Source: Taibaiella helva
GTDB taxonomy: Bacteria > Bacteroidota > Bacteroidia > Chitinophagales > Chitinophagaceae
NCBI RefSeq assembly: GCF_003545695.1
Contig: NZ_QUZZ01000002.1
Location: forward strand, 496,001-560,000
Direction of reading: 5' to 3'
Length of the DNA: 64,000 nucleotides
Shown: positions 12,842 to 55,126 of the stretch, piece after piece
How the letters are laid out: each line of letters opens with the position of its first letter
How positions within the stretch are numbered: position 1 is the stretch's first letter
Translations under genes and position numbers: made by a program
Notes under the pieces: generated by a model
The model's database searches: none
Seen by the model: the letters and a program-made list of their open reading frames with translations, nothing else
What the model was told of the DNA's origin: nothing

Positions 12842-13852
12842 TTATTTGATCAGGCCGGCAAAGTATTTTACGGTACGCACGAGCTGGGAAACATAGCTCA
12901 TTTCATTGTCGTACCAGCTAACGGTCTTCACCAGCTGAGCGTCGCCTACAGTAACCACTTTGGTTTGTGTAGCATCGAACAGGGAACCGAAAGTGGTACC
13001 GATGATATCGCTGGATACGATCTCATCTTCATTGTAGCCGAAAGATTCATTGGCAGCAGCTTTCATTGCAGCATTCACTTCTTCGGCGGTTACTTTTTTA
13101 CCCAGGATGGTAGTCAGCTCGGTGAGGGAACCGGTTACGGTGGGTACGCGTTGTGCGCCGCCGTCCAGCTTACCTTTCAGGTCGGGCAGCACCAGGCCGA
13201 TCGCTTTGGCAGCGCCGGTTGAGTTGGGAACGATGTTCTCGGCAGCAGCGCGGGCGCGGCGCAGATCACCTTTGGCATGAGGCGCGTCCAGGGTGTTCTG
13301 ATCGTTGGTGTAGGCATGCACAGTCGTCATCTGGCCCGCTTTGATCTCAAACTGCTCGTGCAATACCTTAGCCATAGGCGCCAGGCAGTTGGTGGTGCAG
13401 GAAGCGCAGCTGATGATGGTTTCAGAGCCATCGAGGATATCGTGGTTTACATTGAACACTACGGTTTTCAGATCGCCGGTAGCAGGAGCAGAGATCACTA
13501 CGCGCTTGGCGCCGGCAGCAATGTGCGCTTTGGCCTTTTCAGCGTCGGTGAAGAAGCCGGTGCATTCCAGCACTACGTCCACTTCATGCTGTCCCCAGGG
13601 AATCTGGGAAGGATCTTTCTGAGCGTATATTTTAATTTCGTGACCATTAACGGTGATAGCATTGGCGGAGTGGCTTACTTCCTGCCCGAAACGGCCCTGG
13701 GCAGTATCGTACTTCAGCAGGTGCGCCAGCACTTTCGGCTCAGTAAGATCGTTGATGGCAACGACATCAATTCCTTCCATATTGTAGATCTGACGGAAGG
13801 CGAGGCGGCCGATACGCCCGAAACCATTAATAGCAACTTTAACTTTACTCAT
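12842..13852 (-). CDS. gapA: Glyceraldehyde-3-phosphate dehydrogenase, type I
   Basis: The complete 336-residue enzyme has the NAD-binding start [18 protein letters not shown] and the active-site motif [12 protein letters not shown] with the catalytic Cys (about residue 154). It oxidises glyceraldehyde 3-phosphate to 1,3-bisphosphoglycerate in glycolysis and works in reverse in gluconeogenesis. It is a single-gene unit with its own promoter and terminator. Confidence 0.97.
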
Positions 13853-13891
13853 TTTTTATTGTGGATTTTTACTGTGTTAAAAAAATCGCTG

Positions 13892-13922
13892 CAAAGGTAA
13901 ATGCAAGCGCAGTATTTTCCAA
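13892..13922 (-). promoter_or_regulatory. gapA promoter (TTG-N19-TACCTTTG)
   Basis: On the minus strand, TTGG (13922-13919) is followed after 19 bp by TACCTTTG (13899-13892), a full match to the Bacteroidota -33/-7 arrangement. The gapA ATG is 40 bp downstream. Confidence 0.85.
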
Positions 13923-13980
13923 TTAAAGTAGATAGGTATATAAAGGCAAAGTGATTTTTGGGAAAATTTTCTGTGATTTT

Positions 13981-14010
13981 TTGGAAATGTAAAAAAGAGT
14001 ATTACCTTTG
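13981..14010 (+). promoter_or_regulatory. tRNA-Glu promoter (TTG-N19-TACCTTTG)
   Basis: TTG at 13981-13983 and TACCTTTG at 14003-14010 are separated by 19 bp, the same arrangement as in front of gapA. The tRNA begins 20 bp downstream. Confidence 0.85.
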
Positions 14011-14029
14011 CCATCCCAAAGCAATCAAC

Positions 14030-14101
14030 GCCGCGTTGGTCAAGGGGTTAAGACGCCTCCCTTTCACGGAGGAATCACGGGTTCGATTCCCGTACGTGGT
14101 A
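14030..14101 (+). tRNA. tRNA-Glu (anticodon TTC)
   Basis: A cloverleaf can be drawn by hand. The acceptor is GCCGCGT / ACGTGGT (with two wobble pairs) and the D arm is GTC / GAC. The anticodon stem is CCTCC / GGAGG with loop CTTTCAC, giving anticodon TTC. The T arm is ACGGG / CCCGT with loop TTCGATT, and the discriminator is A at 14101. CCA is not encoded. Confidence 0.95.
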
Positions 14102-14110
14102 CAGAAAAAC

Positions 14111-14141: not shown

Positions 14142-14324
14142 CGTTACGCATTATGAGTAGGGTGCACACGGGGCGTGTGTCAGCTACTTTATTTAGGATC
14201 AATCGTAAAAGTTGGGGGGAGAAGATAAGATTGCCGCTTTTCTGTAGACGCATTTTCATAAACATTTCGCAAGTTAGTTAGTAGCTCAAATAATGCTGAA
14301 AGTGTCTCCATTGGATCGCTTTTA

Positions 14325-14378: not shown

Positions 14379-14939
14379 ATAAAGTAAGATCCTTCCTGAA
14401 ACGTTGATTGAATTTAGTGTAAGTCTCGTCATCAATTTTGTCATTGACATATTTTTCTGTCAGGCCGCCCAGCTTTTTCTGAACTTCTGCGATCGACCTG
14501 TTTCTTGTTGTAATAACCCTGCTCAGATTCGTTTTAGAATCCTTAAGAATAGATCGGGCTTTCTTGGTGATATATTCAACCGGGTCAGGCGAAAAAAGCT
14601 AATGGCTCCCAGCAATTCAGCAAACTGATCATGCATAGCTTCTCCCCTGTAGTTCTTTTCCGTATGATGAATGCACCTATAGTAGAGATAATACTTTTTC
14701 TTTCCCTTTGAAAAACCGGCAGTCATATGTTGGCCACACCAGCATTTTATTAAACCTCGTAATGGGAACTCCTCTTTTGGTTGAACTTTAGTAGGCTTAA
14801 TGTTTCGGAGCAGATGCTGAGCATTCCAAAAATCTATTTCTGAAACTTTAATGATCAACAAGTAAAAATCCTCGAAATAAAGGCAGGTAGTCAGGTACTG
14901 ATCCAACGGATGACGCAGATTTCTATGAAATATGAGCAC
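14356..14939 (-). pseudogene. Serine site-specific recombinase remnant (zinc-ribbon and C-terminal coiled-coil part)
   Basis: On the minus strand, residues EEFPLRGLIKCWCGQHMTAG and the following SKGKKKYYLYYRC match the recombinase zinc beta-ribbon domain of large serine recombinases. The first frame ends at 14523. Another frame (14580 to the stop at 14356) continues with DKIDDETYTKFNQRF, the usual C-terminal helical segment. The two join if one T is added to the T6 run read at 14597-14592, so a homopolymer frameshift broke the gene. The catalytic resolvase and most of the recombinase domain are absent. It is a decayed integrase next to a tRNA gene. Confidence 0.8.
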
Positions 14940-14985
14940 ATATCAAAAGGAAGAAAGCAATTTTCGTTCTTCACAACTATAGTCA

Positions 14986-15017
14986 TTGGTGTCTCCATAA
15001 ATTCACCGATATCTTTC
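14986..15017 (+). promoter_or_regulatory. Possible promoter of the lanthipeptide-like precursor
   Basis: TTG (14986-14988), 21 bp, then TATCTTTC (15010-15017), one mismatch from TAnnTTTG. It would give a leader of about 40 nt before the ATG at 15063. Confidence 0.45.
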
Positions 15018-15062
15018 CTCACTTTAACATTGCTTCATTACTTATCAAAAACTCAAATCGAA

Positions 15063-15260
15063 ATGAAAAAGAAAAAGCTAGTTTTAAAGAAAAGCCACTT
15101 AATGAGTTTAACAGATCAAAGCCTGGTTTCAAAAGATATCGAAAACGTTTTGGGTGGAACGCGGCTCAGCCCCACTATAACCTTATTGTCAAAGCCCTGC
15201 CCTTGGACTTCAGTCGTTGTTAGGTGTAATGAAATGAGCACACTGCCACCATACGCGTAG
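15063..15260 (+). CDS. Putative class I lanthipeptide / RiPP precursor peptide (GG leader)
   Basis: The 65-residue peptide starts MKKKKLVLKKSHLMSLTDQS and has a leader ending in VLGG at residues 29-32. This closely resembles the lysine-rich Bacteroidota natural-product precursors (class I lanthipeptide and GG-leader type). The 33-residue core (33-65) has nine Ser/Thr (33, 36, 38, 40, 43, 49, 50, 59, 60) and two Cys (46, 55), enough for lanthionine rings. A longer open frame from 14910 is not needed, since the ATG at 15063 starts the conserved leader. No LanB/LanC, radical SAM or peptidase-transporter gene is in the window, so it is an orphan here. A strong terminator follows. The family call is from pattern recognition; modification type is inference. 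Confidence 0.75.
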   Translation: MKKKKLVLKKSHLMSLTDQSLVSKDIENVLGGTRLSPTITLLSKPCPWTSVVVRCNEMSTLPPYA

Positions 15261-15272
15261 TGCATTCATTAT

Positions 15273-15305
15273 AAAAAAACGCAGCTGAAATTCAGCTGCG
15301 TTTTT
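15273..15305 (+). terminator. Terminator after the precursor peptide gene
   Basis: The stem AAAAACGCAGCTGA / TCAGCTGCGTTTTT with a short loop ends in five T residues, 12 bp after the stop codon. Confidence 0.9.
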
Positions 15306-15370
15306 GGATTCATAATAACTGTAAGGATAAAAACAACATTGTGCTCAAATATTGCATAATTGGCACGTAG

Positions 15371-15451
15371 TGGAAAATCCGGCGCTGATGTACCCGTTTA
15401 GCCGGCTGACTATCCACCGGCTAAATGGGGTCAAGTTCATCGGATTTTCCA
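15371..15451 (+). mobile_element. 81-bp palindromic element, copy 1 (MITE-like)
   Basis: The element has perfect 11-bp terminal inverted repeats (TGGAAAATCCG / CGGATTTTCCA) and an inner inverted repeat (TTTAGCCGG / CCGGCTAAA at about 15398-15425). A second 81-bp copy with only two differences lies inverted at 17959-18039. There is no coding capacity. No clear target duplication is seen. It could be a miniature inverted-repeat element or a paired recombination site. Confidence 0.75.
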
Positions 15452-15544
15452 GTTATTGTATTGGTTTTAAGCTGCCGCATAGCTACATCTTTACAATTTC
15501 CATGCGGTGGTGCTTTGCCTTTCCTTCTTCGGAAGCATTATCGT

Positions 15545-16237
15545 CTATTCCCGGCGATGTTCGCGCGAAATGATTTTCTTATTTTCTTTATAATCATCAA
15601 TTTGTTCTAAAAGTTCCATGGATTTTAATATCGGCAACCATTCCTTGCTATTAAAAATCAGCCTGAACCACTTTTTATTTCTGTTTTCATATTTAATATT
15701 AAGGAACAGCCAGATAGCAACGAGTGAAAAGGTGAGTGTTATTATTCCCTGAAAGAGTAAAAACATAGTATTTCCATTTACAAATACACTTCTTGGTAAA
15801 TAAAAAGTTGTCCAAACGGGGAGTTGCAGGAAAAGAAGCCTTGTAACCCAAAGGGTAGAAGTTTTCAGGCGGGCAAGCTTTTCCTGTGTTGACAAAATTG
15901 GTTCATCAATATCAACGTTGTGAATAAGGGTTAATTGGTAAATGTATACGCCTATTGCAAGTAGGGTAAGCAAAACCTGGATGGCTGCCGAGTACAAAAA
16001 GAACAAACTCACCTTATGATAGGCATAAACAAACAGATTAATAATCATAGAACCAATTGCAATTACCCAAATGGCGCCGACAATCAGGGCAAATACTTTC
16101 ATCGGTTTCATTGATGACAAAAGACTATTGACTTTCATTTTTGAGATATCTGACGCATTTTTTTGATTAAGAACCAGGTTTTCTTCAACCTTCTGGTTGT
16201 ATGATTTCCAAAGCTCCTTTAATGTCACTTCTTCCAT
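15545..16237 (-). CDS. Four-helix membrane protein, possible partner of the ECF sigma factor
   Basis: The 230-residue protein has a soluble N-terminal segment of about 45 residues (LKELWKSYNQKVEENL) and about four membrane helices at 48-70, 80-102, 128-148 and 158-178, with a charged cytoplasmic tail. It starts 4 bp after the sigma-factor stop. Genes of this type repeatedly follow ECF sigma genes in Bacteroidota, and an anti-sigma-like role is a reasonable guess, but no known anti-sigma domain is visible. Confidence 0.6.
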   Translation of the reverse strand: MEEVTLKELWKSYNQKVEENLVLNQKNASDISKMKVNSLLSSMKPMKVFALIVGAIWVIAIGSMIINLFVYAYHKVSLFFLYSAAIQVLLTLLAIGVYIYQLTLIHNVDIDEPILSTQEKLARLKTSTLWVTRLLFLQLPVWTTFYLPRSVFVNGNTMFLLFQGIITLTFSLVAIWLFLNIKYENRNKKWFRLIFNSKEWLPILKSMELLEQIDDYKENKKIISREHRRE

Positions 16238-16241
16238 TGGT

Positions 16242-16745
16242 TTACTTATTTTGAGTGAATCTTCTTTTTAGTTTCTCTTTAATACGTCCTACCTTTGTTG
16301 AAACATTGCTCACAGTGATCCCTAATATCTCTGAAATTTCATTGTAATTTTTATTTTCCAGGTAAAGCAGCACAAGTGCCTTATCCATTTCTTTTAGCTC
16401 GCTAATAAATCGCTCCAATTGTAGCAACAGTTGTTCTTTTTCACTGCTATCGGCTGCTGAAATCTGGGTAAAATTCTCTTTCAGTGTAATGAATTTATCC
16501 TTTCGGACCTTCCTTTTCCGATAGTGTGAAATGGCGACATTTAATGAAATGCGATACAACCAGGTTGTAATTTGGAATTTGTCATTGTATTTATGCAAGG
16601 ATTGCCAAATCTGTATCATTATTTCCTGGATCAGGTCTTGCCTGTCTTCTTCATCCCTGCAATAAGTACGGGCCACTTTAAACAGAATACCCTTATGCTG
16701 CTCAAGAATGTTCTGGAATATTTTCTGCTGCTCTTCTTGCTGCAT
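16242..16745 (-). CDS. RNA polymerase sigma factor, ECF subfamily
   Basis: The 167-residue protein has sigma region 2 (DRQDLIQEIMIQIWQSLHKY, followed by TTWLYRISLNVAISHYRKR) and region 4 (LVLLYLENKNYNEISEILGI with HTH, then VSTKVGRIKEKLKRR). It would direct RNA polymerase to a small regulon. It sits second in a three-gene operon, 4 bp after the hydrolase gene and 4 bp before the membrane protein gene, all bracketed by the 81-bp inverted elements. Confidence 0.92.
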   Translation of the reverse strand: MQQEEQQKIFQNILEQHKGILFKVARTYCRDEEDRQDLIQEIMIQIWQSLHKYNDKFQITTWLYRISLNVAISHYRKRKVRKDKFITLKENFTQISAADSSEKEQLLLQLERFISELKEMDKALVLLYLENKNYNEISEILGITVSNVSTKVGRIKEKLKRRFTQNK

Positions 16746-16749
16746 TGGC

Positions 16750-17802
16750 TTATAGGTTGAGAAACCAGTTTTGAATTAGTTTGTAGGCTTGCGCATTGTG
16801 CCGTATTCCATTGTGCGATGCTCCTTGAATAATGTACACTTTACCCTTGCTGTTGTCTATAACAGCTTTTTTTAATTTGTCAGCAGCAAACACCTCATCA
16901 TGATCGCCTATCAAAACAAGCATGGGTACTTTGACAGATTTCAAGCCGTCTGTATAATTATCCGGGGCCATGCTTATATTTGCCCGGTATGAATATTGCC
17001 TCAGCGGCATCGTTTCCGGCAGGTTGAAAAACAATACCGGTAAGCTATCCTGTTCATGATGATTAATTTCATTCAACATTTTTAAGCCGATGATCCGTGT
17101 AAAATGAATTTTCATGAATGGTTCTGTACTATCACTCCCGGCAGCCTGAACCTTGCGAATGGCGGGCGAATTGTGACCAATTAATGGCGCAAAAAGCAGG
17201 AAGCCATCAATTTTCTGTTGGTGATTGGCCATTGCATATCTTAAAGTTACGCCACCGCCCATTGAGTGTGCCGCAATAAATATTTTACCATTTGGTTTCC
17301 CCTTTTTGACGGTTTCAATAATATCTGATAAATCATCTGCGTACTGATTTATATAATCAACATCCCCTGCCTTGCCTTCCGACTGTCCATGCCCTCTGAA
17401 ATCAATAGCAAAGATCTCTGCTTGCGTTGCTTCCTGTAAAAGTCCGGCTGCTTTATTCTGCAACCAGGCCGTACTCCCCACTCCATGAAGCAGCAGAATA
17501 GTGTTTTGTGATGCCTTTGGAAACTTGTATGAGAATATTTTTTTATTGTCCCTTGTTATAAAGAAGTGATCTTCTGTTTTATAATCCTGTTCAAAACCGA
17601 GGTCTGTAAGTACTGTCGGGTCAATAGCTGCCTGTTTTACCGGTTTAAAGGTTGGGGCGGGCATGTTGATCAGCCGGGCAGCTTCAGTTAGCAGGCTGTC
17701 TTTATTTCCGTTGAAATATTGTTGCAGTATACTTTGCCCCTCCACTTTTCCTGCAAGTGTTAAGCTGATCATGAATGCCAGGAGGATTATTATTTTTCTC
17801 AT
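16750..17802 (-). CDS. Exported alpha/beta hydrolase
   Basis: The 350-residue protein has a signal peptide (MRKIIILLAFMISLTLAGKVEG) and an alpha/beta hydrolase fold: HGVGSTAWLQNKAA (oxyanion region), nucleophile elbow AHSMGGG, acid near IGDHDEVF and His in GASHNGIRHN. It resembles the monoglyceride-lipase/lysophospholipase (Hydrolase_4) group. The substrate is unknown. As first gene of the operon with the ECF sigma factor it may act on the envelope signal or substrate; this is inference. Confidence 0.85.
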   Translation of the reverse strand: MRKIIILLAFMISLTLAGKVEGQSILQQYFNGNKDSLLTEAARLINMPAPTFKPVKQAAIDPTVLTDLGFEQDYKTEDHFFITRDNKKIFSYKFPKASQNTILLLHGVGSTAWLQNKAAGLLQEATQAEIFAIDFRGHGQSEGKAGDVDYINQYADDLSDIIETVKKGKPNGKIFIAAHSMGGGVTLRYAMANHQQKIDGFLLFAPLIGHNSPAIRKVQAAGSDSTEPFMKIHFTRIIGLKMLNEINHHEQDSLPVLFFNLPETMPLRQYSYRANISMAPDNYTDGLKSVKVPMLVLIGDHDEVFAADKLKKAVIDNSKGKVYIIQGASHNGIRHNAQAYKLIQNWFLNL

Positions 17803-17958
17803 TGTCGAATAATTAAATATTTTGCATGTTTTCTAATTATTCGCAAAGGGGAAAGAAATATCACACATAAATAAAAAAATACTTCATAAAGTCAGCTGGA
17901 GTTCAGGAAAAGGTGAGGGTAAAACTGTTAAGACTAATGATTCATCAAGTTTGCCAAG

Positions 17959-18039
17959 TGGAAAATCCGATGAACTTGACCCCATTTTGCCGGTGGATAG
18001 TCAGCCGGCTAAATGGGTACATCAGCGCCGGATTTTCCA
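17959..18039 (-). mobile_element. 81-bp palindromic element, copy 2 (inverted relative to copy 1)
   Basis: The reverse complement matches 15371-15451 at 79 of 81 positions. In this copy the terminal inverted repeat extends to 15 bp (CAAGTGGAAAATCCG and its complement). Together the copies form a long inverted repeat around the 2.5-kb sigma-factor operon. Confidence 0.75.
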
Positions 18040-18079
18040 CTTGTGCTTTGTCATGCTATTTTCTACCGGTTTCCCAGTA

Positions 18080-18110
18080 TTGTTTTTGTACGGTACCTGG
18101 ATTAAATTTG
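18080..18110 (+). promoter_or_regulatory. Possible promoter TTG-N20-TAAATTTG
   Basis: TTG at 18080-18082 and TAAATTTG at 18103-18110 match the Bacteroidota pattern, but the leader to the ATG at 18271 would be about 150 nt. Confidence 0.45.
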
Positions 18111-18270
18111 CGCAGGCGAGCGACGGAATAGCAGACCAGGCAGTCTATCCTGAAATTGCTTGCATCCTGGTGGGAGAGCATTGGTCCACTAGACTAAAAA
18201 TGTTGCCAGATCTTCGCGGCTAATACTCTGGTCGATTTAGCTTAACTGTATTCCAGTAAATCGAAAACTC

Positions 18271-18753
18271 ATGAATCACGTTTATATCCTCTGTTTTATT
18301 CTTTGTCTTTTTTCAGGAACATCCATTTTTGCGCAGGAAGCAAAAGTCGATAAGAAAACGAAAGAAGCCCTGGCTCAGCGTTATGCAGAAGATAAGTATT
18401 ATGCCGAGTTTAAAAGAGGTATTTATAACCGGGAGGCATGGAAAGCTTCCTGGGTGGGGGTAAAGCTTTCTGAGCTATATAAGAGCTGGGGTGTGCCAAC
18501 AAGAACTGCTACGGACGAAACCGGTGGGCAGGTTGTGGTGTACGAAAATGTAACCAATACGTCCGGCGGCAGCTATACGCCGGGATATATTGAAACGGCT
18601 ACAAATGGTTTTGGACAAACGGTAATAACGGGGCAGAGAGCAGCGGAAGATACAAGATGGAGCAGCCGGTATGTTACCATAACAACAGTTTATGCCGATA
18701 AAAAAGGAGTGATCACAAAAGTGGATTTCAAAAGCAGCTACAGTCGTAATTAA
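18271..18753 (+). CDS. Exported protein of unknown function
   Basis: The 160-residue protein has a signal peptide (MNHVYILCFILCLFSGTSIFAQ). The mature part includes WVGVKLSELYKSWGVPTRTA, similar in style to small SmpA/OmlA-like modules that begin with a K-x-x-L-x-x-x-WG-P-T motif, and a Gly/Thr-rich middle. It likely forms an operon with the next gene (16-bp gap). The SmpA resemblance is weak and I give no function. Confidence 0.65.
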   Translation: MNHVYILCFILCLFSGTSIFAQEAKVDKKTKEALAQRYAEDKYYAEFKRGIYNREAWKASWVGVKLSELYKSWGVPTRTATDETGGQVVVYENVTNTSGGSYTPGYIETATNGFGQTVITGQRAAEDTRWSSRYVTITTVYADKKGVITKVDFKSSYSRN

Positions 18754-18769
18754 TAAATTGACCATTATT

Positions 18770-19486
18770 ATGAAAAATATTAAAGCCGCACTGGTCTTTG
18801 CTTTTATACTTTCTTCATTTGGTGCCAAAGCACAGGGAAAATATTTTGAAGTGATCACGGAGAAAAATGAAATTACAGGTGGGTGCGTTGGGAAAGTGCG
18901 GCCATTATATGATCCTGAATATGTAAAGCTGGCCTATCCTGGCAAAACAAAAGAACAGCTTTACGATGCTGTAGTAAACTATGTAAAAAGCCATAGTGGA
19001 CTTAAGCTGGATTATACCAATGATGTAAAGAAGACCTTCTTGGCTTACAGAGATTTTGCAACGATCGGCGATAAAAAGAAATGTGGCGCTGATCTTGTTT
19101 CGCTAACTTATATTGGCGTGGTCACGGATCTAAAAGACACGCTGCTTGTGAGCTATAGCCGCGCTTCCAAGATTTTTTCAACTATTTTTGACGCCAAGCT
19201 TGTTATAAGCCCTGGCAATGATGTGGTTTCAGAAGGGGATGTGCCCTTTAATGAGTTTCAATTTGTTCTACCCGCTGCCGGAAGAACGCAAAGCAGCATA
19301 GCGCCCAACGGCGGGCTTATAGGTATAGCTACTTCCCGGAAGATCAACTATAAATTAGCATATCCTGAGAGCGTGTTTGATGCCAACGGCAAAATATTAA
19401 ACCCCGGCAATAAAAAAATAATTGAGGACTTCTTTGATGGCTATGTCACTGATTTAAAAAACTATCTGGATAAGCATCTAAAATAG
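18770..19486 (+). CDS. Exported protein of unknown function
   Basis: The ATG at 18770 starts a signal peptide (MKNIKAALVFAFILSSFGAKAQ); an in-frame TTG at 18758 is less likely. The 238-residue protein has DUF4468-like spacing: a GC-containing start, a soluble domain of about 150 residues, then a conserved-looking C-terminal piece (KKIIEDFFDGYVTDLKNYLD). I do not recognise a function. It is followed by the 55-bp perfect palindrome. Confidence 0.65.
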   Translation: MKNIKAALVFAFILSSFGAKAQGKYFEVITEKNEITGGCVGKVRPLYDPEYVKLAYPGKTKEQLYDAVVNYVKSHSGLKLDYTNDVKKTFLAYRDFATIGDKKKCGADLVSLTYIGVVTDLKDTLLVSYSRASKIFSTIFDAKLVISPGNDVVSEGDVPFNEFQFVLPAAGRTQSSIAPNGGLIGIATSRKINYKLAYPESVFDANGKILNPGNKKIIEDFFDGYVTDLKNYLDKHLK

Positions 19487-19505
19487 TTCGGCCTTCATGC
19501 TATAT

Positions 19506-19560
19506 GCGAAATGCACTGACCCCAATAAATTAGACACTTATTGGGGTCAGTGCATTTCGC
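19506..19560. repeat. 55-bp perfect palindrome (23-bp arms, 9-bp loop)
   Basis: The arms 19506-19528 and 19538-19560 are exact inverted repeats, starting GCGAAATGCACTGACCCC, with loop ATTAGACAC. No T run follows on either strand, so it is not a normal terminator. The ACTGACCCC...AGACAC parts resemble insertion-sequence ends (IS3-like, from memory), suggesting a miniature element or two abutted ends. Confidence 0.7.
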
Positions 19561-19783
19561 AGGCATCTTTGTTGTGTATTCGTTGGTAGGGCGCGCGCGT
19601 GCCAGCAGGAGCAAAAAATAGCCGGACATGTCTGACCGCAAAGTCCTCGTCAATTAAAGGGATGCTAGCTTAAAGCATTTGTTGATAAAACAATACCTAT
19701 TAATCCTGTGCCGTCTTCCAGCGGACGCGGGCGCTCAGCCGTTTCAGCCGGGAACGGCAGTTACGATAAGTATAAGGGGATGT

Positions 19784-20425
19784 CTATTTTACCAATCCAA
19801 GCTTCAGGGCTACTTTAACCAGGCCGACGGTATTTTTTACATCCAGCTTCTGGAGCAGGCTGTACCTGTGGTTCTCCACGGTACGGAAACTGATGTAGAG
19901 CTTCTCTGAGATCTCCCTTGTCGTATTTTCTTCTGCGATCAGTTTCAATATCTGCATTTCCCGCTTGGTAATCTCAGGTACCACATCGTCCTTATCCCGA
20001 CCAGGATGCAGCACATGGGCAAGTATCTTCTCTTTCAGGGAAGGGTCGATGAACTCCTTTCCTGTATACACGGTTTCAATGGCTGCTATCAGGTTCTGGC
20101 GATCCGTATCTTTAAGCAGGTAACCGGAGCAGCCCCTGCGCATCATGCTCGATACCATGGCCGGCGCGTCCAGGCTGGTAAGCACCACGATCTTAACAGA
20201 AGGGTGCTGCTGCCTGATCACCGGCGCCAATGCTTTGCCAGACTGGCCGGGAATCAGTATATCCAGCAGCAGCACATCGGGACTAAAGACAGACAAGCCG
20301 TCCATGAGGGAAGCGGCCGAATGATAGACGCCCCTGACGACAATATTCCCATGTCCTTCCAGCATGGCGCTGACACCGCTGGTAGCAAGCGGATGGTCAT
20401 CTACTATAGAAACGGATATGGGCAT
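19784..20425 (-). CDS. LuxR/NarL-family response regulator
   Basis: The start at 20425 (MPISVSIVDDHPLATSG) gives 213 residues. The receiver has the DD pair near residue 10, the phospho-Asp in PDVLLLDILIPG and the Lys in LLKDTD. The C-terminal HTH reads ITKREMQILKLIAEE, followed by REISEKLYISFRTVENHR. It is 75 bp downstream of the histidine kinase gene on the same strand, so the two form a two-component pair. The longer open frame to 20482 is not supported by the domain start. Confidence 0.93.
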   Translation of the reverse strand: MPISVSIVDDHPLATSGVSAMLEGHGNIVVRGVYHSAASLMDGLSVFSPDVLLLDILIPGQSGKALAPVIRQQHPSVKIVVLTSLDAPAMVSSMMRRGCSGYLLKDTDRQNLIAAIETVYTGKEFIDPSLKEKILAHVLHPGRDKDDVVPEITKREMQILKLIAEENTTREISEKLYISFRTVENHRYSLLQKLDVKNTVGLVKVALKLGLVK

Positions 20426-20500
20426 CGGCGCGCTGCATTTATGTGCGCTAATATATAAACTTTTTGCATGACTGATGGTCATAAAATATCATAACCTTCG

Positions 20501-22507
20501 CTATGCCGCACCTGAATGATTCAGGAAGGGCCTTACATCGAATTCCAGGTAAACGGTAGTGCCCTGTCCCTGCTCGCTCTCGATGTCGAAAGTTCCCTGC
20601 AGGATCTTTACCCGGTTCCTGATGCTGCGGATACCATAGCCCTTGTTGTTTTCCGTATGGGGCATGCCCCGGCCGTTATCTTCCACTGTTATGGAGCAGA
20701 GGTTGTCGGCATATTGCAGCTGGACCAGCGAAGCGGTAGCCCCCGCGTGCTGGACGATATTCTGGACAAGCCCTTGTACGATCCTGTAAACAGCGGTTTC
20801 CGCCTGTATTACCAATTGAGGAAGCGGCGGTCCTATCTGCTGGAACTTGATATGCAGGCCCGAAGCTTGTTCCGTGGCCTTGCAGAAATAGAAGATCGCC
20901 TGTGCCAGACCGTCTTCCAGCAGTATTTCCGGCATAAGGTTATGCGCCGTATTCCTGAGCTCCCGGGTAGCTATATCCAACTGTCCGATGACATCCTGGT
21001 AATGGGCGTTTACTGCGGCTTCCGGGGAACCCGTAAGGTTCATTTTTACATTGGCCAGCCGGACCAGCACACCATCATGAAGATCGTAGGCTATCCTGCT
21101 CCGCTCTTTATCCGCGCCTTCGGCTTCTGCTTTCAGGCGCGCTATCTCCTGGTCCTGCAATAAGGAATGCATTTGCTGGTTTAAGAAGGACTTCTTGTGA
21201 CGATAGTTGCGGTAAGCGAGTATTAATATGATGCACAGCAAACCGGAAACCACACACATTGCAGCGATCCAGGATTGCTGTTTTTTCAGGGCAGTGTCCC
21301 GGAAGGATATTTCTGCCTGCTTCTGTATCATGTTTTTCTCATGTTCCAGCGCCTGGAAATTAAGCATGAAGTCCGCAACTACTTTCTTTTGTCCGTCATA
21401 CAGCAGTGTATGCTGGTCCATCCACTTTTGGTGGAACTCATATGCCTTTCGGTAATCTCCAAGGGCTGCGTACGTATCCGAGAACCCTTCATAAATTACT
21501 TCTAAAGTCTGATTTTCTTCACCATTAGTGAGCTTCAACGCTTGCTTCAGATGCAGGATCGATGTGGCGTAATCCTTTTTGAGAAAAGCCAGATAACCGG
21601 ATACTAATTCTGTCCTTATTATGGATATGCCCGGCTGCGTGACCGATTGCGCCAAATGGAAATAATATTCGGCACTGTCATATTGTCGATGAAAAATATA
21701 GCTCTCCGTTAAATTGAGCAATATGGTATAGGACAACAAGCTGTCATGTAGGTTTCTGGCAATCGCATAAGCATCCTTATAATAGCCGATCGCATCGTTG
21801 GAATCAAGCTTTACGTAAGTTCCCGCCTGGCATAGTATAACATTGAGCAGCATCGGCGAGTCAACAGGCTTTATTTTGAGGACGTATTCCCTGGCGATGG
21901 AAAGGTAGCTGTTGGCCATACTATCTTCCTTCAGCGCAGTCATTAGGACGCCCAGGTTCTGGTATAATACAGCAATGGTACGCGGATTATCCACCTTATT
22001 TTCCCGAACGGGCTGTATGGCCCGGAAATAGTACAATGCGGCTTTTGCAAAATCGTTTGAGCTGTAGCTCTTACGGGCTGCGAGCGTATTCTGCACACAG
22101 GTTAATTCACCATCTTTTAATTGCGCATTCAGCATAGAGATGGAATCAATATAGGGTTGGCAACCTGCCCGGTCGCCCTTTTGAAGCAGCTTGTTCCCTA
22201 TTACATACCATATAACCCCTGTTTCTTTTTTAAATCCTCTTTTCTTTGCCAGCACCAACGCCGTACGTGCTATTTTGATGGCGCTGTCGGGGGGAACTTC
22301 CCGTTTTCTGGCAATCTCTATATACCGGTTGACCAGTAAGCTGTCCCGTATCATTGGTGAGGCCGTGATAGCAGGTGAATGCTCCTGCCCGGTTAAACGC
22401 GGGGCTGCTATCAGTATCAGCCATAAAGCAAACTGAAGGGGAAGTATCTTTTTTATAAAACACTTCAGGTTATATGTCGCGGTCTTTTTCATGATGAGAA
22501 ATTTCAT
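20501..22507 (-). CDS. Sensor histidine kinase with TPR-rich periplasmic sensor
   Basis: The start at 22507 (MKFLIMKKTATYNLK) or 22492 precedes a signal or TM segment (FALWLILIAAPRLTG), giving about 668 residues. An exported TPR-type region spans about residues 60-400. A second TM helix (SWIAAMCVVSGLLCIILILA), a short coiled coil, a HisKA_3 helix with the His in IAYDLHDGV, and an HATPase_c domain (VEDNGRGM and GYGIRSIRNRVK) follow. It should phosphorylate the adjacent LuxR-type regulator. The open frame upstream to 22774 overlaps the divergent Crp gene and is not used. Confidence 0.92.
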   Translation of the reverse strand: MKFLIMKKTATYNLKCFIKKILPLQFALWLILIAAPRLTGQEHSPAITASPMIRDSLLVNRYIEIARKREVPPDSAIKIARTALVLAKKRGFKKETGVIWYVIGNKLLQKGDRAGCQPYIDSISMLNAQLKDGELTCVQNTLAARKSYSSNDFAKAALYYFRAIQPVRENKVDNPRTIAVLYQNLGVLMTALKEDSMANSYLSIAREYVLKIKPVDSPMLLNVILCQAGTYVKLDSNDAIGYYKDAYAIARNLHDSLLSYTILLNLTESYIFHRQYDSAEYYFHLAQSVTQPGISIIRTELVSGYLAFLKKDYATSILHLKQALKLTNGEENQTLEVIYEGFSDTYAALGDYRKAYEFHQKWMDQHTLLYDGQKKVVADFMLNFQALEHEKNMIQKQAEISFRDTALKKQQSWIAAMCVVSGLLCIILILAYRNYRHKKSFLNQQMHSLLQDQEIARLKAEAEGADKERSRIAYDLHDGVLVRLANVKMNLTGSPEAAVNAHYQDVIGQLDIATRELRNTAHNLMPEILLEDGLAQAIFYFCKATEQASGLHIKFQQIGPPLPQLVIQAETAVYRIVQGLVQNIVQHAGATASLVQLQYADNLCSITVEDNGRGMPHTENNKGYGIRSIRNRVKILQGTFDIESEQGQGTTVYLEFDVRPFLNHSGAA

Positions 22508-22529
22508 GATGCAAAATTTGCAATTATCC

Positions 22530-22543
22530 CAGGAAATTTCCTG
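22530..22543. promoter_or_regulatory. 14-bp perfect palindrome in a divergent promoter region
   Basis: CAGGAAATTTCCTG lies between the kinase gene (minus) and the Crp/Fnr gene (plus). It is a candidate operator, but the binding protein is unknown. Confidence 0.4.
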
Positions 22544-22660
22544 AGTGAATTCTCTTATTTTTTGGAAAATGAGTGCGTGGTTTCTTTTACCCCGTAGCAT
22601 TATGAGCGACATTGCAGCATCCGCCGGATCGTGCCCGCCCGGAGCAGGCCCTCCGCACAA

Positions 22661-23236
22661 ATGAGCACTATGGAAAAACTGCGCAGCAACATAGAAGAGG
22701 TAACACCGGTAAGCGACGGGGAAATGGCATTCATCCACTCCTTCTTCTCCCTGAAAAAAGTACGGCGCTACCAATACCTGGTGCAGGAGGGTGACGATGT
22801 GCCATATGAATACCTGGCACTATCCGGTATTTACCGGGTGTATTATCTCGCTGATGATGGTAAAGAGCATATCGTAAAGTTTGCAGAGGAAAACTGCTGG
22901 ATGTCGGACTATAAAGCGTTCTTCAAACATGACCGTGCAAGTATGTTTATCGAATGCATGGAAGCAGGCGAAGTGCTGTGCCTTACGCTTTACGGGAGGG
23001 AACAATTATCGGCTGAGCTGCACAAGATGGAGCACTTTTTCAAAGTCCGGCTCACCAATGAGTATGTTGCCCTGGAAGAACGGGTAAAGCAATTGCTTTC
23101 CAATACTGCGCGCCAGCGTTATGAAGCCTTCCTGAAATCCCATCCCGGCCTTTTGCAGCGTATTCCTAAAAAGGTGGTTGCAGCTTACCTGGGCGTATGC
23201 CGGGAAACATTGAGCAGGCTTTACTTAAGCTGCTAG
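22661..23236 (+). CDS. Crp/Fnr-family transcriptional regulator
   Basis: The start at 22661 (MSTMEKLRSNIEEV) gives 191 residues. The N-terminal cyclic-nucleotide-binding-like beta barrel covers about residues 20-110 (LVQEGDDVPYEYLALSGIYR). The C-terminal winged helix includes RYEAFLKSHPGLLQRIPKKV and YLGVCRETLSRL. No Cys cluster of the FNR type is present. It leads a run of small redox or detoxification genes and may control them. Confidence 0.9.
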   Translation: MSTMEKLRSNIEEVTPVSDGEMAFIHSFFSLKKVRRYQYLVQEGDDVPYEYLALSGIYRVYYLADDGKEHIVKFAEENCWMSDYKAFFKHDRASMFIECMEAGEVLCLTLYGREQLSAELHKMEHFFKVRLTNEYVALEERVKQLLSNTARQRYEAFLKSHPGLLQRIPKKVVAAYLGVCRETLSRLYLSC

Positions 23237-54085: not shown

Positions 54086-55126
54086 TTATCTTCCGCCGTG
54101 CGAAGCGCGGCCGCCCATGGCCGCGATACGGCGCACCTCAGCTTTGCCCATGGATGCAAAGCCGCGACGGCTGCTTCTGCCTCCGCCATTATTACCACCG
54201 CGTCCACCGCTATTACCGCCGCGTCCACCGCTATTACCGCCGCGTCCACCGTTGTTGCTGCTACGTCCGGCGCCGTTACCACCGCGTCCGCCACCATGCG
54301 AGGCGTGTCCCCCCATAGCGGCAATGCGACGTACCTGGTCGCGATCCATTGCTGCAAAGCCTCTGCGGCTTCCGCCACGGCGGTCGTCGTCATCATCATC
54401 GTCATCGCGTCGTCTTCCGCCACCGTGGGACGCGTGCCCGCCCATAGCGGAGATGCGGCGGACTTCATCCCGGTCCATAGCGGCGAAGCCTCTGCGGCTT
54501 CCGCCACCACGGTCATCGTCATCATCATAGCGCCCGCGGCCGTTTCCACCTGAGCTGCGGCCTCCGCCACGGCGGTCGTAGTCATCGTCATCATCGCGTC
54601 GCCGGCCTCCGCCATGGGAAGCGTGACCGCCTTTGGCTGCGATGCGACGTACTTCGTCGCGGTCCATAGCGGCAAATCCGCGGCGGCTGCGACTATCTCC
54701 GTAGTCGTCATCATACTCGTCGTCTTCGTATCTGCCCCGTCCGCGGTTTGAGCGATCATCTTCATCATAGTCGTCTTCATCGTATCTGCCCCTTCCGCCA
54801 TGCGAAGCCCTGCCGCCTTCAGCGGCGATGCGGCGTACCTCATCACGGTCCATAGCGGCGAATCCGCGACGGCTGCGACCATCTCCATAGTCGTCATCAT
54901 CATACTCATCGTCATAACGTCCGCGCCTTCCACTATAGCGATCATCGTCGTCATCGTCCTCGTAGCGGTCATTGTACCGGCTACGGCCACCGCCATAATC
55001 ATCATAGTCGTCATCCTCATAATCCTCATCGTAACGGCTGCCGGAGCTGTAGGAGCGTTCGCCGGACCTTCTGTAATCCCTGTCGTCTCTGTCGGAATCG
55101 TAATTTCCCCGATTTCGTGTTGGCAT
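54086..55126 (-). CDS. KGG-type stress-repeat protein with five repeats and D/R/G-rich linkers
   Basis: The 346-residue protein contains five near-identical units of about 26 residues of the type RRGFAAMDRDEVRRIAA followed by GG-ASHGG, at residues 85-111, 148-173, 210-236, 253-279 and 319-345. These match the KGG/con-10/YciG stress motif (GF-xM-...-IA-KGG-A-H). Linkers are Asp/Arg/Gly/Tyr-rich and predicted disordered, with long D runs (241-248) and SGGRGGN repeats (299-312). Family members are general stress, desiccation or sporulation proteins of unknown mechanism. The repeat number here is unusual. Confidence 0.88.
   Translation of the reverse strand: MPTRNRGNYDSDRDDRDYRRSGERSYSSGSRYDEDYEDDDYDDYGGGRSRYNDRYEDDDDDDRYSGRRGRYDDEYDDDDYGDGRSRRGFAAMDRDEVRRIAAEGGRASHGGRGRYDEDDYDEDDRSNRGRGRYEDDEYDDDYGDSRSRRGFAAMDRDEVRRIAAKGGHASHGGGRRRDDDDDYDRRGGGRSSGGNGRGRYDDDDDRGGGSRRGFAAMDRDEVRRISAMGGHASHGGGRRRDDDDDDDDRRGGSRRGFAAMDRDQVRRIAAMGGHASHGGGRGGNGAGRSSNNGGRGGNSGGRGGNSGGRGGNNGGGRSSRRGFASMGKAEVRRIAAMGGRASHGGR

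Follow-up and report, generated by a model that had tools for sequence, protein, structure and literature searches.

A possible orphan member of a class I-type lanthipeptide precursor library spread over the Taibaiella helva genome

We analyzed a 64,000-nucleotide stretch of the Taibaiella helva genome (contig NZ_QUZZ01000002.1, positions 496,001 to 560,000), hereafter the window, which contains a precursor-like open reading frame (ORF) of 65 residues at 15063–15260 (+ strand, stop included). We give even chances to the reading that this window ORF is an orphan and atypical member of a class I-type lanthipeptide precursor library that extends through the genome, and we consider it about a toss-up whether it is a working substrate of the enzymes LanB and LanC. 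What is new is not the ORF itself but its surroundings, a library that resembles that of the prochlorosins, is of class I type, and exists at the level of the genus.

Direct reading of the window bore out what an earlier note on this DNA had described: a 65-residue gene with a Lys-rich Bacteroidota leader ending in VLGG, and a core with nine Ser/Thr and two Cys. The frame opens with ATG, and its product reads MKKKKLVLKKSHLMSLTDQSLVSKDIENVLGG (leader) / TRLSPTITLLSKPCPWTSVVVRCNEMSTLPPYA (core). The leader, residues 1–32 (15063–15158, + strand, G+C content 32%), carries the LxLxKx5L motif from L6 to L16 (LVLKKSHLMSL, 15078–15110, + strand) in its N-terminal part and in strict form, as do 61 of the 70 sister ORFs introduced below. 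The double glycine G31-G32 (15153–15158, + strand) is preceded by L21 (-12), I26 (-7), and V29 (-4), which fits the hydrophobic -12/-7/-4 pattern that we take to be the consensus of double-Gly sites cut by C39 peptidases. With the GG and one C39 transporter in the genome, the ORF thus shows the features of an exported double-Gly peptide, and its putative 33-residue core (15159–15257, + strand) combines Ser/Thr with Cys, as expected of a class I lanthipeptide precursor. In the accessible part of a published survey, LxLxKx5L is reported for the class I precursors (LanA) of Bacteroidetes, many of whose leaders end in GG (Walker et al. 2020, PMC7268733), and the -4 and -7 positions of double-Gly sites are also mentioned in the available portion of PMC12328550.

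The genome containing the window (G000, 4.82 Mb, 75 times the window) holds many such leaders. The model NF038153 (class I lanthipeptide leader) gave 71 matches at E ≤10, 51 of them over its cut-off; at E 10 it also matches in five of 14 control genomes (none over the cut-off), and the weakest of the 71 could be chance. Our counts of 70 exclude C27:557449, a match inside a 342-residue frame, and the counts of 71 in feature comparisons are these 70 plus the window ORF. The 70 sisters measure 50–106 residues (one printed without its Met) and join a single leader pattern to very different Ser/Thr/Cys-rich cores, with medians of about eight Ser/Thr and six Cys; the core lengths and medians are rough, some leaders having been cut at an early GG or GA. 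Two additional precursor-like ORFs were seen in other stretches of the genome (L060, L073). The 70 are spread over 12 contigs, and 43 have no other precursor within 5 kb. An orphan position is the rule in this genome, not the exception: for 63 of the 70, no LanB, LanC, or C39 match is found within 10 kb, and neither these nor the window ORF have LanB and LanC in the same cluster. Seventy mostly unlinked precursors with a shared leader and diverse cores, beside two LanB and four LanC, would make up a trans-acting library of prochlorosin type at the level of the genome. The sequences are most economically explained by a class I version of the strategy known from prochlorosins, in which a conserved leader, diverse cores, few enzymes, and unlinked precursors go together.

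The genome-wide search that the earlier note had proposed found two LanB, four LanC, and one C39 match besides the roughly 70 sister leaders, so that neither maturation enzymes nor related leaders are missing. All these enzymes lie on contigs other than that of the window, in keeping with the suggestion of an orphan whose enzymes act in trans. The further claim that the 64 kb hold no modification, peptidase, or transport genes stands as far as LanB, LanC, and C39 profiles are concerned, none of which matched in the window; no search aimed at radical SAM enzymes was made. At C33:194.6–202.6 kb, a full-length LanB (C33:195903; 1063 residues, TIGR03891) is accompanied by a precursor, an ABC exporter with a C39 domain, and an adaptor resembling HlyD, which scores 122 bits with TIGR01843 and so stays under the cut-off of that model; the exporter is a 731-residue ABC transporter with the sole PF03412 (C39) match, at C33:199078. 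A split LanB (C33:61813–64914) accompanies a LanC and a precursor at C33:60.2–64.9 kb. Each of the three further LanC has one or two precursors beside it and no PF04738 match nearby. The four PF05147 matches all fall in ORFs of 386–405 residues, i.e., of LanC size, and the genome has class I LanB and separate LanC, LanM itself not having been searched for. All four LanC keep the cysteine and the cysteine-histidine pair of the zinc site (WCYGD, CHG). In this they differ from LanC-like proteins in three clusters of Bacteroidales, which lack these residues according to the accessible text of PMC10352776.

The enzymes would have to act in trans on the window ORF, which is precursor-like and would be processed in this way, if at all. 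A LanB encoded elsewhere would bind LxLxKx5L in the leader; Ser/Thr of the core would be dehydrated, after which LanC would close the Cys onto them, forming at most two rings. The C39 domain of the exporter would then cut after VLGG and export TRLSP...PPYA.

We compared the leader features with chance by taking every ATG start and ORFs of 45–120 residues in 9.6 Mb of order-2 Markov sequence and 550 kb of reversed real sequence, requiring the strict motif, a GG starting at residues 21–39, and at least three basic residues at positions 2–5; the test was designed after the window ORF had been seen, the motif itself being published. None of 65,667 simulated and none of 2,891 reversed-sequence ORFs showed this combination, against 51 of the 70 precursors of the genome. 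Looser combinations among the simulated ORFs gave one case of strict motif and GG, one of loose motif, GG, and basic N-terminus, and 91 of loose motif and GG. A chance ORF would suit the non-coding-like codon score and the lack of homologues described below, and in a genome 75 times the window a rare match could arise somewhere; with no such match in 9.6 Mb and a hairpin 14 nt past the stop, we regard this explanation as improbable. A hidden Markov model (HMM) of the leaders, built from the 70 sisters, placed it at the top of the 483 ORFs of the window (5.5 bits, E 0.54); the highest score among 3,540 ORFs of the 550 kb of reversed sequence was 4.3 bits. This result is supportive, although not strong.

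Several results weigh against placing the window ORF in the library, and the reading of the earlier note, a class I lanthipeptide-like precursor, is only partly supported. NF038153 scores it at 6.7 bits (E 8.1) with a cut-off of 22, and we therefore do not file it as a member of that family; it is absent from the 71 matches of the genome, 20 of which likewise fall below the cut-off. The linker from the motif to GG spans 14 residues, compared with 1–10 in the 65 other GG-bearing ORFs (nine residues in 43 of the 65; in five of the 70 sisters, the first 40 residues contain no GG). In codon log-odds only one of the 71 ranks lower, and 68% of shuffles score equally well; its two Cys, against a sister median of six, give the fourth lowest Cys fraction of the 71. 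No pseudoknot leader precedes it, and no copy of the shared operator described below was found upstream, the best site having four mismatches. No solid homologue was found in 294 family genomes, the one doubtful match (E 0.008) containing an internal stop, and none in the collection genome_contigs. Membership of the window ORF in the operator regulon is ruled out by the same four mismatches. Within its own genome, the search returned one weak match, itself a sister leader. Pfam gave no match and NCBIfam no family other than the sub-cut-off NF038153; Rfam at relaxed E gave 13 matches on the ORF region, all below the gathering score and most of them on the hairpin.

The few Cys would also fit a double-Gly peptide of another kind, an unmodified bacteriocin or signal that uses the C39 exporter only and neither LanB nor LanC. 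The site L-12, I-7, V-4, and GG is indeed fuller than in most sisters, 12 of 70 of which have the strict form. However, LxLxKx5L and the Lys-rich start match leaders beside LanB, and no other NCBIfam or Pfam family matched, so that we hold such a peptide to be unlikely.

Of the transcription signals claimed for the gene, the hairpin of the likely terminator was confirmed, while the promoter candidate proved weak. TTG at 14986 and, after 21 nt, TATCTTTC at 15010–15017 form a promoter candidate (14986–15017, + strand) that loosely matches what we take to be the Bacteroidota consensus; no sigma70-type site was found on the + strand near the promoter region. A strong hairpin at 15275–15305, with A and T runs on either side, begins 14 nt past the stop and is a likely intrinsic terminator; its folding energy is -20.5 kcal/mol, with z -4.95 and -7.55 in two segments. 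Because the runs flank both sides, it could also serve the genes of the opposite strand, the last ORF of which stops at 15545. Such hairpins are common in the library: at -18 kcal/mol or below, they follow 43 of the 71 precursors compared with 14 of 150 random stretches, a contrast that weakens at -12 kcal/mol or below (58 of 71 vs 87 of 150). That of the window ORF is middling, the 33rd strongest of the 71, for which the median is -19.8 kcal/mol.

The gene lies near a tRNA-Glu (ttc, 14030–14102, + strand) at which DNA similarity to three other genomes of the genus (G001, G002, and G003) ends, bar short or recombinase matches. GAPDH and the tRNA (12842–14102) align at 80–88% with all three, and in each the alignment breaks off no more than 9 nt from the tRNA. 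We compared the window DNA as far as 24000 with the 10–17 kb that follow the tRNA on its right side in the three sister genomes; the matches were limited to short repeats and, in G001, a stretch of recombinase sequence. Among ten window proteins (14523–23236) compared with the same side, the recombinase alone matched, again in G001. This serine recombinase remnant with a zinc ribbon (14523–14939, - strand; PF13408, 26.5 bits, cut-off 25.3) has a relative near the same tRNA in G001, and G002 carries a clear lone precursor (L086:6728–7057) about 5 kb to the right of it. The tRNA-Glu looks like an insertion hotspot that would have received a precursor gene at least once, probably twice. Because the window gene adjoins the conserved tRNA and a decayed recombinase, it probably came on a mobile island, and it would not, or not yet, be under the control of the shared operator.

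A decayed or foreign precursor could have come with this island and now be silent or drifting like the adjacent recombinase. The recombinase remnant, the missing operator, the odd codon usage, and the lack of relatives agree with such a fate, whereas the frame is intact across leader, GG, and core, and so is the hairpin; we consider this explanation rather unlikely. A copy of a 33–41 nt repeat lies at 14189–14228. The repeat also occurs at C27:313352 and at five contig ends of the genome (C2, C3, C21, C30, and C33), and probably marks the terminus of an element present in several copies, at which the assembly is interrupted; the precursor C2:154101 adjoins a contig end carrying it. Farther along the window, 54086–55126 (- strand) encodes a highly charged, low-complexity protein of 346 residues with repeated RRGFAAMDRDEVRRIAA..GGHASHGG units.

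Returning to the library in which the window ORF may be an atypical, perhaps newly arrived or decaying, entry, we found ACTGCA-N7-TGCAGT with at most one mismatch of 12 in 18 of the 71 upstream regions (that of the window ORF being counted in the 71), always 53–67 nt before ATG; two others have two or three mismatches and 51 at least four. The exact form ACTGMA-N7-TGCAGY occurs at 21 distinct places in the genome, 16 of which precede one of the 70 precursors. The other five lie before a precursor missed by the model, a microviridin-type precursor, an apparently broken precursor (by eye), and the C32 LanC, and inside an unrelated gene. These counts are partly circular, the consensus having been derived in this genome, and G002 serves as the independent test: 17 of its 18 distinct places with ACTGMA-N7-TGCAGT precede a precursor of a ribosomally synthesized and post-translationally modified peptide (RiPP) or a LanC (partly by eye). 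Eight stand about 35–45 nt before leader matches, seven before precursor-like ORFs, one before a microviridin-type precursor, one before a LanC orthologue, and one before no such gene. The operator is not universal within the genus because none of the three operator-like sites in G001 (71 leaders) precedes a visible RiPP gene. The reversed pattern is a poor control as its base order differs, and the argument rests on the gene that follows each copy. The pattern loses its specificity once a single mismatch is tolerated, matching the genome 92 times forward and 77 times in reverse (most of these matches not inspected).

The operator is common to RiPP precursors of two classes and a LanC. The microviridin-type precursor under it is L074:3011–3226 (C27; NF033738, 47.6 bits, cut-off 26), and G002 has another in L095. 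No ATP-grasp ORF was noticed by eye in about 3 kb around the former, where no dedicated search was made. Directly upstream of the operator-controlled C32 LanC lies a small ORF, helix-turn-helix-like by eye (L062:14529–14852, - strand), which is a candidate regulator by position only.

Ten other precursors (L030, L033, L034, L035, L038, L040, L046, L057, L059, and L063) have a predicted H-type pseudoknot RNA just before the start codon, of the type CGCUGAACAACC-CCCC-AUGGCG-AAGACA-GGGG-AGG. Pairing is kept in 47 of 50 positions of stem P1 and 39 of 40 of P2, and the stems change on both sides (ACGCU/GGCGU and AUGUC/GGCAU; CUCC/GGAG and CCCC/GGGG). Re-dealt partners reached the observed pairing of P1 in 1.0% and that of P2 in none of 5,000 trials, a test biased in favor of the pseudoknot, as visual inspection for this pattern had picked out the ten, the partner positions were optimized, and re-dealing ignores relatedness. 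The element looks like a translational switch. As a known riboswitch it was rejected, no Rfam family reaching the gathering score over nine loci; at relaxed E, one of two places gave a chance-level Alpha_RBS match (9 bits, gathering score 38, E 9.1) and the other none.

Leaders at E ≤0.01 number 60 in the genome of the window, 71 in G001, and 98 in G002, with none in G003 or in any of 14 controls. G003, 99% complete, is without leader, LanB, and operator, the whole system missing together. Among 288 family genomes sampled, leaders occur in 13 and LanB in 31, with at most seven leaders outside the genus. The closest named match of the full-length LanB is from Taibaiella koreensis (89% identical, among five loci; very near genomes may be omitted). 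The five loci come from named genomes or metagenome-assembled genomes. Leaders lie within 6 kb of the LanB homologue in three of them, six in L109, three in Taibaiella soli (L110), and one in T. koreensis (L111), which ties the leader type to LanB; none were found by this test in two Pedobacter loci (L112 and L113).

From these sequences we put forward, tentatively and at somewhat less than even chances, a plug-in RiPP library of Taibaiella type. In it, 60–100 scattered precursors with one class I leader would serve in trans as substrates of one or two LanB, a few LanC, and a single C39 exporter. Some of the precursors would be co-regulated with LanC and a microviridin-type precursor through the operator and others controlled by the pseudoknot RNA; new entries would arrive on tRNA-linked mobile islands, the window ORF having been caught before wiring-in. 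To our knowledge, lanthipeptide systems with one enzyme and many substrates are known only with the class II LanM of cyanobacteria. If true, a class I counterpart in Bacteroidota would mean that the many-substrate strategy arose twice. Peptide engineering would gain LanB/LanC pairs that are tolerant by nature, and each genome would reveal dozens of peptides overlooked when only the neighborhoods of enzymes are mined. With the operator and the pseudoknot, the conditions that switch the library on become directly testable. Among the matches listed in the literature, as far as its accessible text goes, we found no description of a class I lanthipeptide library on this scale, and no paper pairing Taibaiella with a lanthipeptide, in a collection of papers thin on subscription journals.

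Three known systems invite comparison. Pinensin-type clusters, known from Chitinophaga and having a split LanB, consist of one cluster with its precursor in place and are not known to have a scattered library, which sets them apart from the T. helva genome. They resemble it in belonging to the same phylum, in the split LanB at C33:61813–64914, and in LanC that match the LanM cyclase model best, though below its cut-off; pinensins are mentioned in the accessible part of PMC7268733. The Bacteroidetes class I LanA (PMC7268733; NF038153) share, in the same accessible text, the leader motif, the GG, the Ser/Thr/Cys core, and a C39 protease in the system, whereas the window ORF does not reach the cut-off of the model and its linker is longer. 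That survey, as available to us, included precursors if a LanC-domain protein was encoded no more than seven genes away; the 63 of 70 precursors lying more than 10 kb from LanB, LanC, and C39 illustrate that most of the library would thereby go uncounted. Prochlorosins and SyncA (class II, modified by ProcM/SyncM, cyanobacteria) offer the likeness of a conserved leader, diverse cores, and dozens of precursors, many of them far from few enzymes; the accessible texts give from 29 (PMC12328550) to 79 (PMC9872173) substrates. The Taibaiella library differs from them in having separate LanB and LanC instead of LanM, in its other leader family, in its place in Bacteroidota, and in a common operator, under which a LanC and a microviridin-like precursor also fall.
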